Below are positions 7,756 through 12,700 of a stretch of 38,063 nt of DNA, piece after piece. Under the pieces are notes generated by a model. That model was not told the DNA's origin and did not search any database. It saw nothing but the letters and a program-made list of their open reading frames with translations. The first letter of the stretch is position 1. Each line of letters begins with the position of its first letter. The DNA lies in assembly GCA_013285985.1 (NCBI GenBank), contig JABDGR010000011.1:1-38063 (forward strand). The letters run 5' to 3'. This stretch comes from Verrucomicrobiota bacterium (GTDB lineage: Bacteria; Verrucomicrobiota; Verrucomicrobiia; Opitutales; JABDGR01). Made by a program: the position numbers and the translations under genes.

Positions 7756-9249
7756 CTACGGCAGCAGCGTGTCACCCATGAGGAAGCGGTCGGCTTCGCG
7801 CGCCGCGCCGCGCCCTTCATTGATGGCCCAGACGACGAGGCTTTGTCCGCGCCGGCAATCTCCGGCGGCAAAGACCCCGCGCAGGTTCGTCGCATATTTG
7901 CCGTGGTCAGCCTTGGCGTTGGTGCGGGCGTCACGCTCTATTTTCAGGGCATCCAGCAAAGGCTGTTCTGGCCCAAGGAAACCCATCGCCAGCAAAACCA
8001 ACTGCGCGGGAATTACGCGCTCGCTGCCTTTGACCACCTGCGGGCCGAATTGCCCGGCTTCATTCTTTTTCCATTCCACATTGACAAGTTCCAAACCGCT
8101 GATTTGGCCGTTTGCGTCACCGACAAACTTTGTTGCGGTAACCAGATACTGGCGCGGGTCGGCGCCAAATTTTGCCGCGGCTTCCTCCTGTCCGTAATCC
8201 AGTTTGTAAACCTTGGGCCATTCCGGCCACGGATTGTTCGGCGCGCGCTCCAGGGGCGGTTGCGCGAGAATTTCAAGTTGCGCGAGCGACTTGCAGCCAT
8301 GGCGCATGGCCGTGCCGACGCAGTCCGTCCCCGTGTCGCCTCCGCCGATGACGACGACATGTTTGCCGCGCGCATCAATGGGCGGGCGTTGGGTGTCGGT
8401 GATGCCCTGGTCGAGGAGGAATTTTGTGTTCGTATGGAGATACTCCATCGCGAAGTGCACGCCCTTGAGTTCGCGGCCGGGAATCGGCAAGTCGCGCGGC
8501 TTGGTCGCGCCCGTGCAGAGCACCACCGCGTCGAATTCCTTCAATAATTTTTCCGCGGCATAATTCACGCCCACTTCGACATTGGTTTTAAAGACAATCC
8601 CTTCCTTCGCCATCACATCCACCCGGCGTTGGACGACCGCTTGCTTGTCGAGCTTCATGTTGGGGATGCCATACATAAGCAATCCGCCGATGCGGTCGGC
8701 GCGCTCGAAAACGGTGACGAGGTGTCCGGCGGAATTCAACTGCGCGGCGCACGCCAGGCCGGCCGGGCCGGAGCCAATGACCGCAATTTTTTTGCCCGTG
8801 CGGTGCGCGGGCGGCTGGGGGATGATCCAGCCTTCCTCCCAGCCCTTGTCGGCAATGGCGTTTTCAATGCTTTTGATGGTGACGGGTGGCTCGATGACTC
8901 CGAGCACACACGAACCTTCGCATGGCGCGGGGCAGACACTTCCGGTAAATTCGGGAAAGTTGTTGGTATGGTGCAGACGTTCCAACGCTTCCCGCCACTG
9001 TTTTTTATATACCAGGTCGTTCCATTCGGGAATGAGATTGTTAATCGGACAGCCGGAGGCCATGCCGCTGATGAGCTGGCCGGTGTGGCAGAACGGCGTG
9101 CCGCAATCCATGCAGCGGGCGCCCTGGGTTTGCAGCTCCTGGTCCTCGCGGTGGAGGTGGAACTCCTTCCAGTCCTTGATGCGTTCAGCCGGTGAGCGGT
9201 CGGGGCCGGAGTCGCGTTTAAAATCGAGAAAGCCAGTGGGTTTGCCCAT
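7756..9249 (-). CDS. gltD: Glutamate synthase small subunit (GltD)
   Basis: CMDCGTPFC and CPAPCEGSC Fe-S Cys motifs, [21 protein letters not shown] motif, [17 protein letters not shown] motif; adjacent gltB. Confidence 0.96.
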
Positions 9250-9258
9250 GGGAAAAAG

Positions 9259-9283
9259 GGAGTCAGGAGACAGAAGTCAGGAG
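9259..9283 (+). repeat. Left arm of imperfect inverted repeat flanking the four-helix-bundle gene
   Basis: GGAGTCAGGAGACAGAAGTCAGGAG. Pairs as an inverted repeat with 9674-9705: 3 mismatches over 25 aligned nt plus one 7-nt gap. Confidence 0.8.
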
Positions 9284-9663
9284 AGGGGTGATGGCGGGAG
9301 GTTGCGACTTTTGCCCAAGTGGGCAATATAGCTATGAAGCAATCGAGCCACTTCGTCGAGTTGAGTTTCCAAGGAAAGGGTTTCGGAATAATGGAGGTCG
9401 CGGGCCAGAATCAAATAATAGCGGCATTCTTCAAGAGAGCCTTGGCTAATGTTGTAGAAACGCGCTTTGTCTGCGAGGCTGTGTTTGCGGAAGCCTTCGG
9501 CGATGTTGGCGGGAATGGAAACGGCGGCGCGGCGTAATTGGCTGGTGAGTCCATAAAGTTCGTGTTTGGGAAATGTCTCAGTAATTTTATAAACTGCGAG
9601 CACAAAGGCATGGGCCTTTTGCCAAACCAGGAGGGCTTGGAATGATTGAGCCGGTGTGGGCAT
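9277..9663 (-). CDS. Four helix bundle protein (23S rRNA intervening-sequence protein / Avd-like family)
   Basis: FQALLVWQKAHAFVLAVYKITETFPKHELYGLTSQLRRAAVSIPANIAEGFRKHS...FYNISQGSLEECRYYLILARDL is characteristic of the IVP-like four-helix-bundle family. Confidence 0.95.
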   Translation of the reverse strand: MPTPAQSFQALLVWQKAHAFVLAVYKITETFPKHELYGLTSQLRRAAVSIPANIAEGFRKHSLADKARFYNISQGSLEECRYYLILARDLHYSETLSLETQLDEVARLLHSYIAHLGKSRNLPPSPLS

Positions 9664-9673
9664 GGGCGTGGTG

Positions 9674-9705
9674 CTCCTGTCTTCTGGCTACTGTTTCCTG
9701 TCTCC
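9674..9705 (-). repeat. Right arm of imperfect inverted repeat flanking the four-helix-bundle gene
   Basis: Minus strand reads GGAGACAGGAAACAGTAGCCAGAAGACAGGAG and abuts the gltB stop codon (TAA, complement of 9706-9708). Confidence 0.8.
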
Positions 9706-12700
9706 TTAATTCCCACCGACCCGGGAGAGGTCTTTCGCATTGGCTTCAAACGCCGCCAGCAACGCCTGTTCGCCAGTGAAGCCCTGGGCCTCGACTTTTT
9801 TAATCTGCGTGAGCATGCGTTCGTAGTCCTTCGGGAAAACCTTGGCAAATTTCGGCAGGTATGCATCCCAGTTTTCGAGGAGGCGTTTCGCCTTCGCCGA
9901 GCCGGTCAGCCGCGCGTGTTTTTCGATGAAGGCTTTGACTTCGGCGATTTCCTCGTCGCTGCTCTCGATGAGTTTGTAAAGATTCACCATCGCCGGGTTC
10001 AGGCGCTGGCCGAACAGTCCGTCCTCGTCGAGCACGTAAGCCAGCCCACCCGACATGCCCGCAGCGAAATTGCGCCCCGTCGGCCCGAGCACGACCACCT
10101 TGCCCCCGGTCATGTATTCGCAGCCATGATCTCCGACGCTTTCGACGACCGCGTGGACACCCGAGTTGCGCACGCAGAAGCGCTCGCCCGCCATGCCCTG
10201 GATGAAGGCTTCACCGGCCGTCGCGCCGTACAACGCCACGTTGCCGATGATCATGTTGACGCCCGGTTCAAACGTGCTGGTTTTCGGCGGTGTAATGATG
10301 ATGCGCCCGCCGGAAAGGCCTTTGCCGACATAGTCATTCGCGTCGCCCTCAACGCGGATGGTGATGCCCCTGGGCATAAACGCACCGAGCGATTGCCCGG
10401 CTGAGCCGTGGAAATTCAACTGGATGGTGTCGTCGGGCAGGCCGGTGGGGCCGTGCCGGCGCGTGAGTTCGCTGCCGAGGATGGTACCGACGACACGGTG
10501 CGTGTTCTTGATGGGCAGGTTGACCACCACCGGCTGTTTTTTCTCCAGCGCCGGTGCGCAGAGCTTGAGCAAGTGCGTGTTGTCGAGCGCGGCGTCGAGG
10601 CCGTGGTCCTGCGGCATCTGGCAATAGGTACCCACTTCCGGGCCGACGTCGGGCCGGTAAAGAATTTTCGAGAAATCGAGGCCCTTGGCCTTCCAGTGGT
10701 TCACCGCCTGGTGGACGGCGAGCTTGTCCACGCGCCCGACCATTTCGTTGACGGTGCGGAAGCCGAGCTTGGCCATGTATTCGCGCATCTCCTGCGCGAT
10801 GAAGCGCATGAAGCGTACGGCATATTCCGGGTCGCCGTTATATTTCGCGCGCAGGCGCGGGTCCTGCGTGGCGATGCCGACCGGGCAGGTGTTGAGATGG
10901 CACACCCGCATCATCAGGCAGCCCAGGGTGACGAGCGGCGCCGTCGCAAAACCAAATTCCTCCGCGCCGAGCAGCGCGGCGATAACGACGTCGCGCCCGG
11001 TCTTGAGCTGGCCGTCCGTTTCAATCACCACGCGGCTGCGCAGATTGTTGAGCAAAAGGGTCTGGTTCGTTTCGGCCACGCCGAGTTCCCAGGGCGCGCC
11101 CGCGTGCTGGATGGACGACAGGGGCGAGGCCCCCGTGCCGCCGTCATGGCCGGAAATCAAAATCACGTCGGCTTTGCCCTTGGCCACACCCGCAGCGATG
11201 GTGCCGACGCCGATTTCGGCCACCAGCTTGACGTTGATGCGCGCCTTCGTGTTCGCGTTTTTCAAGTCGTGGATGAGCTGGGCCAGATCCTCGATGGAAT
11301 AAATGTCGTGGTGCGGCGGCGGTGATATGAGGCCGACGCCCGGCGTGGTGCCGCGCACCTTGGCGATGGGCGGGTAAACCTTGGTGCCGGGCAATTCGCC
11401 GCCTTCGCCGGGTTTCGCACCCTGCGCCATTTTGATTTGGAGCTCCTGGGCATTGATCAGGTAATTGCTCGTCACGCCAAAACGTCCGCTTGCGACCTGT
11501 TTGATCGCGCTGTTTTTGCTGTCGCCGTTCGGCTCCAGCATGTAGCGCACCGGGTCTTCGCCGCCTTCGCCGGTGTTCGACTTGCCGCCGAGGCGGTTCA
11601 TCGCGATGGCCAGCGCCTCGTGTGCCTCCTTGGAAATCGAACCATACGACATCGCGCCGGTCTTGAAGCGTTTGACGATGGCTTCGACCGACTCGACTTC
11701 TTCGAGGGGCACGGGTTTTTCGGCCAGTTTAAATTCAAACATCCCGCGTAGCGTGCACAGGTTGCGCGATTGCTCGTCAATCAGCTTCGAGTATTCCTTG
11801 AAGATGGCAAAATCGTTGGCGCGGGTGGCCTTTTGCAGTTTATGAATCGATTGCGGGTTCCACAGGTGGAACTCGCCGTCCGCGCGCCATTGGTAAACGC
11901 CGCCGGCTTCCAGCGCGTGCGTGTCCTCGCCGTCGTGCGCCGGGTAGGCGTGGCGGTGCCGCTGGCGCACCTCATCGGCGATGGTGTCCAGTCCGATGCC
12001 TTCGATGCGCGAGGCCGTGCGGTGGAAATATTTGTCCACCACATCGTGGTTGATGCCAATGGCTTCAAAAATCTGCGCGCCGCGGTAGCTGGCGTAGGTT
12101 GAAATGCCCATCTTCGCCATCGTCTTGATGACGCTCTTCACGCCCGCCTGGATGAAATTCTTGCACGCCTTTTCATAATCCACGCTCAATTTTCCATCGT
12201 GGATGAGGTCGTAAAGCGTTTCAAAGGCCAGGTAGGGATTCACGACATCCGCGCCAAAGCTGAACAGCAGCGCGAAATGATGCACCTCGCGCGGCTCGCC
12301 CGTTTCGAGGATGAGCGACACCAGTGTGCGCGTGCCGCGCCGGATGAGGTGGTGGTGCAGGCCGGACGTGGCGAGCAGGGCGGGAATGCCCGCGTGCTTT
12401 TGATCTAGGCCCCGGTCGCTGAGCACGAGCAGGTTCGCCCCCTTGGCGATGGCCTGGTCGGCGGCGGCGAACAATTTTTCCAGCGCGGCGGCCAGGCCCG
12501 GCCCGCCGAGGTCCGGCTCGAACAAAATCGGCAATTCCGCTGACTGGAAGCCTTCGCGCTGAATGTGGCGCAGCTTGGCCATCGTCTTATTATCAATAAT
12601 CGGGTCGTGCAGCTTGATCCGGCGGCAGTTTTCCGGCAGCGACTCAACCAGATTGCGCTGCGTGCCGAGGAAGGTTTCCGACGCGGTGATGACGGCCTCG

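Follow-up and report, generated by a model that had tools for sequence, protein, structure and literature searches.

The origin and the mobility of the intervening sequences (IVSs) of 23S rRNA have been in question for decades. The IVSs of Coxiella and Leptospira are 428–444 nt in length, possess terminal inverted repeats, and carry a gene of the 23S_rRNA_IVP family (IVP), which encodes a four-helix-bundle protein. In the Coxiella IVS tandem GACAGAT heptamers stand before the start codon of the IVP gene, the terminal stem is ~28 bp long, and the sequence is excised by RNase III; the Xanthomonas member of the family, XCC0516 (PDB 2GSC), is reported as a homopentamer (PMC4990558). Heptamer arrays as separate features are known from Xanthomonas, Nostoc, and Beggiatoaceae (PMC4692102, PMC4679880). 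In Xanthomonas the GGGAATC arrays form 70–75 inverted pairs per genome, and most arrays lie close to stop codons in gaps between genes of the same direction; the study describing them saw, in general, no association of the arrays with mobile elements and mentions neither S23 nor XCC0516 in its text (PMC4692102). The IVP protein family, the rRNA IVS, and the heptamer arrays taken separately are thus already known; a description joining array, gene, and mobility was not found in the literature searched, outside which most subscription journals lay.

The element considered here is located in a 38,063-nt stretch of a contig of a Verrucomicrobiota bacterium of the order Opitutales (JABDGR010000011.1; this whole stretch is further called the window). 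According to a profile search of the neighbours the gap between gltB and gltD is exactly 9250–9705, that is, 456 bp. An earlier reading of the window, made from the letters without database searches (further the sequence-only reading), had placed a single four-helix-bundle gene in this gap between inverted-repeat arms at 9259–9283 (plus strand) and 9705–9674 (minus strand); ORF calls and the PF05635 and TIGR02436 matches bear out the gene, and the arms have the positions and letters it gave. The features are as follows, the models of the host genes being from NCBIfam.

7756–9249, minus strand: gltD, the downstream host gene (TIGR01317, 784 bits)
9250–9705, minus strand: the entire inserted element between gltB and gltD, in operon direction; most junctions of relatives in the order are short
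9259–9283, plus strand: downstream array, inverted, GGAGTCA GGAGACA GAAGTCA GGAG, overlapping the end of the ORF
9277–9663, minus strand: 128-aa 23S_rRNA_IVP/four-helix-bundle gene (PF05635, 126.5 bits; TIGR02436, 126.2 bits)
9674–9705, minus strand: upstream array, GGAGACA GGAAACA GTAGCCA GAAGACA GGAG, beginning immediately past the gltB stop codon
9706–14340, minus strand: gltB, the upstream host gene (NF008730, 1705 bits)

The IVP gene is the sole gene of the element. Its product passes the family cut-offs of PF05635 (33.8 bits) and TIGR02436 (24 bits) and is homologous to XCC0516 (E 6e-20); no Rfam match was obtained in 8800–10200. The protein family, the similar length, and the terminal inverted repeats are those of a 23S rRNA IVS; unlike an IVS, the element lies between the protein genes of an operon and not inside 23S rRNA, and it belongs to a kind with full arrays on both sides, subfamily-specific motifs, and gene-less forms.

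Each of the two arms consists of tandemly repeated copies of a degenerate heptamer, a feature that was missed at first sight, and the 7-nt gap in the initial arm alignment is one heptamer unit. The score of the inverted arms was matched by 1 of 5000 dinucleotide shuffles and by 2 of 978 equally spaced stretches within the same window. Taken alone the inverted repeat is only moderately above chance, and the persuasive case for the arrays lies in the comparison with other loci. In the predicted RNA fold of the junction the array arms form the closing stem (z −2.4), so that, as in an IVS, the terminal inverted repeats pair around the ORF. The GGAG located 10 nt upstream of the IVP ATG is the last GGAG of the upstream array, and the stop codon TGA (9277–9279) falls within the downstream array; with an array-derived GGAG near the start and an array-derived stop codon, the gene seems to need no promoter of its own. 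An exact-pattern search of the window's own genome (50% complete) gave no copies of the array besides its own arm, which is explained by each protein subfamily having its own motif. The second IVP of this genome (L001 1450–1839) is bounded by a different array (AAAGGGACAAAGGAGCAAAGG). On contig C4 of the same genome a gene-less inverted pair was also observed (L330 3083–3211); its arrays are built of GTTTCGG units and enclose a loop of 59 nt.

Among 52 genomes of the order Opitutales 23 gltB-gltD junctions were readable, and 20 of them are empty, with a length of 16–85 bp; therefore the gene of the window is an insertion, and the comparison with relatives proposed in the sequence-only reading came out mostly free of the insert. 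Two junctions (L007 and L008; 121 and 132 bp) hold gene-less insert-like sequence, in which inverted heptamer arrays, as judged by eye, are clear in L008 and probable in L007. The remaining one (L010/L088, 476 bp), from genome G038 of another genus, carries a single GxxExxY (PF13366) gene enclosed by inverted arrays of the CACRGAG type. The gltB-gltD site has therefore been entered repeatedly. In genome G013, to which L008 belongs, arrays of a GGCTGAA heptamer flank gltD on either side and are also present in the gltB-gltD junction, with no IVP gene.

The exact ends of the insertions were seen in cyanobacterial plasmids, which carry the same IVP subfamily, 60–70% identical, with the same heptamer unit as the window. 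Two plasmid genes flank the element in Trichormus ATCC 29413 and in Scytonema; related plasmids, 97–98% identical, possess the plain junction AAAAAGTAATTAACAAAT with no insert, and the boundaries of the insert are the arrays. The Trichormus insert is flanked on both sides by GTAAT, which includes the upstream stop codon. This 5 bp target duplication is clean at the one junction, the others being ambiguous or accompanied by small target changes, and the repeated bases at these other junctions could alternatively be supplied by the arrays themselves. Two more insertions, of different IVP subfamilies, occupy adjacent junctions of one operon in Nostoc plasmids, with five empty relatives each. In the plasmid of Picosynechococcus PCC 7003 (L300 1995–2351) an IVP element separates cas10 from cmr3 in a type III-B CRISPR operon, and PCC 7002 is without the element. 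Verrucomicrobiota congeners provided a comparison at lower identity (occupied L279 versus empty L280–L282), and at one locus the insert is common to several congeners (L283–L286, L288), so many copies are old.

The generality of the arrays was estimated by comparison of 250 bp on each side of a gene with the reverse complement of the opposite side, with significance at p≤0.02; these statistics rest on best local alignments of short sequence, and many of the compared genomes are draft metagenome assemblies. Inverted arrays were detected at 21 of 26 IVP loci in the order and at 18 of 24 across the phylum, at 1 of 21 control gltD loci, and at 22 of 26 GxxExxY loci. The array unit is mostly 7 bp long, at times 6 or 8–11 bp, and the median length of the element in the family is 478 bp. 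In ~380 kb near 20 further IVP genes and the window, and in ~840 kb of less biased sequence, the inverted pairs of the tandem type mostly surround an IVP gene or are short and gene-less; the few others in those stretches are GC-rich or coding chance pairs. A block-permutation test of the arm-to-arm register gave p≤0.05 at 37 of 76 loci, so in about half of the loci the pairing of arms exceeds that of a mere common motif, which is suggestive rather than decisive. The expectation of one fixed repeat of 25–32 bp had to be given up: the ends are variable arrays of 6–11 bp units which vary in length, phase, and motif, in disagreement with the fixed terminal inverted repeats of a transposon or MITE, and as the motif differs by protein subfamily, most members would escape any one repeat model. 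The REPIN/RAYT systems and MITEs are likewise short, inverted, and intergenic, with gene-less copies; their ends, however, are fixed and tied to a transposase, whereas here variable arrays are tied to a four-helix-bundle gene. Like the IVP elements, the GxxExxY cassettes occupy gene junctions and consist of one gene enclosed by inverted degenerate arrays, but their protein is unrelated, of the PD-(D/E)XK nuclease superfamily, and their CACRGAG arrays have a period of 8–10 bp. A GxxExxY gene flanked by such inverted arrays was also noticed on a Bacteroides finegoldii plasmid (L326), and CACRGAG-type arrays surround apparently non-coding sequence in G013 (L358 8085–8586), possibly a gene-less unit of the GxxExxY type.

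The similarity of motifs increases with the identity of proteins across 110 array-bearing loci (Mantel r = 0.57, reached in 0 of 1000 permutations) as well as within one phylum (r = 0.40, 0 of 1000), the relation being flat under 55% protein identity. Of the 85 IVPs with 55% or more identity to that of the window, 35 have the window-type unit in tandem upstream and 41 have it downstream; it was found near none of the 76 IVPs below 55%, and in only 2 of all control windows taken 500 bp further out. Its carriers belong to about a dozen phyla and include Acidobacteria, Ignavibacteria, Bacteroidetes, Balneolaceae, Calditrichaeota, Planctomycetes, Verrucomicrobia, Lentisphaerae, Clostridia, Syntrophaceae, Elusimicrobia, Chlorobium, and Cyanobacteria, and several motifs with several IVPs can coexist in one genome (L037, L058, and L138 in G021). 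As the motif tracks the protein across hosts, gene and arrays therefore move between hosts as a unit, although their co-variation could alternatively reflect linked descent and not binding. On these comparisons of sequence the mobility of this kind of element is strongly supported: the unit is inserted between genes, with arrays as its ends, and motif and subfamily travel together across phyla. The proposal of a compact insertion unit is accordingly in good standing, being backed by the empty relatives, the exact plasmid empty sites, and the same motif at related genes across phyla; neither a gene present in all relatives nor a repeat occurring nowhere else, the two outcomes named in advance as speaking against it, was encountered.

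The arrays are also found without a gene. A gene-less pair with similar motif (L296, genome G047) occupies the site of the IVP element of the congener G031, and another one (L292, G266) the junction where G038 carries the GxxExxY cassette. In the Nostoc plasmid pNPM1 (L315 about 1118–1335) an IVP ORF is interrupted by a ~216-bp gene-less pair of the window-type unit with a conserved hairpin-rich core; for the insert, 100 matching places were counted in 43 cyanobacterial plasmids. STRR heptamers and small dispersed repeats also occur in Nostoc. With gene-less pairs at several loci the arrays thus appear sufficient in cis, and their existence points to the gene-bearing copy as possibly the autonomous form, so the description of the element as non-autonomous is not established. 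By a longest-ORF rule, the calls of which are rough, 57 IVP genes are oriented with both called neighbours and 3 against both. The elements sit in sense within operons, at or beside the upstream stop codon, and selection alone could alternatively produce this bias.

The preferred reading, to which a probability of roughly two in three is given, is a minimal mobile unit of the composition array–IVP gene–inverted array, where the arrays serve as ends, IVP provides recognition, host enzymes provide the chemistry, and the rRNA IVS is a subset. The mode of movement, including binding, action in trans, and host chemistry, we infer as follows. An IVP oligomer would recognise its own array, either as DNA or as an RNA stem of both arrays, and would act on arrays, the mobile ends, in cis and in trans, the gene-less pairs being the dependent form served by IVP in trans. 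The insertion step would be performed by host replication or repair and not by a reverse transcriptase. The promoterless unit would be co-transcribed with the operon, the arrays would provide the ribosome-binding site and stop codons, and RNase III may cut the array stem, by analogy with 23S rRNA IVSs, so that the operon would tolerate the unit. The 23S rRNA IVSs would be units which landed in rRNA; with its heptamers, its stem, and the same protein, the Coxiella IVS gives the impression of one such element in rRNA. The counterpoint to this reading is the lack of a catalytic residue by which a four-helix bundle could cut strands.

The same lack of a known catalytic site in IVP, together with the mobility, present or former, of the gene-less pairs and the frequent Y1_Tnp genes in the order, would suit a passenger unit whose arrays are recognised by an unlinked transposase, for instance a RAYT/Y1 or IS enzyme, IVP only regulating or stabilising. 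This reading is unlikely, since the motif follows the IVP subfamily across phyla, which is unexpected for one common transposase, and since G038, with one IVP and seven GxxExxY genes, has no detectable Y1_Tnp, and G019, with GxxExxY genes, has neither Y1 nor RVT_1. The RAYT/Y1 transposase as owner of the arrays was rejected: the RAYT loci of the order bear their own REP-type repeats and not these arrays.

An RNA route, in which a reverse transcriptase copies stem-loop RNA of the operon for insertion and IVP takes the part of Avd beside this enzyme, would agree with the relation of the IVP and Avd families, with the marked sense orientation (57:3), and with the predicted RNA stem closed by the arms. 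The protein of the window shares the broader four-helix-bundle fold with the Avd protein of diversity-generating retroelements and matches the Avd models weakly, but its scores are under the cut-offs (26.6 versus 80 bits and 22.5 versus 40 bits), and no RVT_1 gene was found in the 1.5 Mb searched of the window's genome, which is 50% complete, nor in G007, G020, G027, G031, and G034, near-complete IVP-rich genomes which have 3–11 IVP genes each. Dependence on such a retroelement or on a reverse transcriptase was rejected from these IVP-rich relatives, there is no sign of a link to diversity-generating retroelements in the genomes searched, and the RNA route is very unlikely. Still less likely are the arrays as cis-regulatory sites of an ordinary host gene, acting by binding or as an RNA stem and amplified by slippage. 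The arrays do adjoin start and stop codons and contain SD-like sequence and stop codons, and for solitary bacterial heptamer arrays a regulatory role or G-quadruplex formation has been proposed (PMC4692102, PMC4679880); against this, the exact empty sites end at the arrays, with gene and arrays missing together, the gene-less pairs occur at unrelated loci and nested in an ORF, and the same unit is present across many phyla.

A wider reading, which is tentative and rather less probable than its opposite, is a pan-bacterial minimal mobile class, in which a non-catalytic four-helix-bundle protein reads subfamily heptamer arrays and spreads its gene and gene-less pairs via host enzymes, the IVSs, GxxExxY cassettes, and orphan Xanthomonas and Nostoc arrays being branches. 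The GGGAATC repeats of Xanthomonas and the G-rich GGGGAYT repeats of Nostoc are likewise degenerate heptamer arrays, the solved IVP XCC0516 is from Xanthomonas, and a link of the origin of the GGGAATC arrays to an XCC0516-type IVP is predicted. If IVSs are indeed rRNA-inserted members of a common intergenic element, the question of their origin and mobility would become testable with one protein, one array, and empty sites of close strains. The unexplained heptamer arrays of several bacterial groups would then receive a source, and a function would be provided for the IVP protein family, which is present in 225 of the 289 genomes sampled in Verrucomicrobiota.

Among phage records no relative was found. 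IVP genes are present on 11 IMG/VR contigs, several of which, read by eye, have arrays; on the contigs L371–L374, classed as viral, IVP genes with inverted heptamer arrays were observed.
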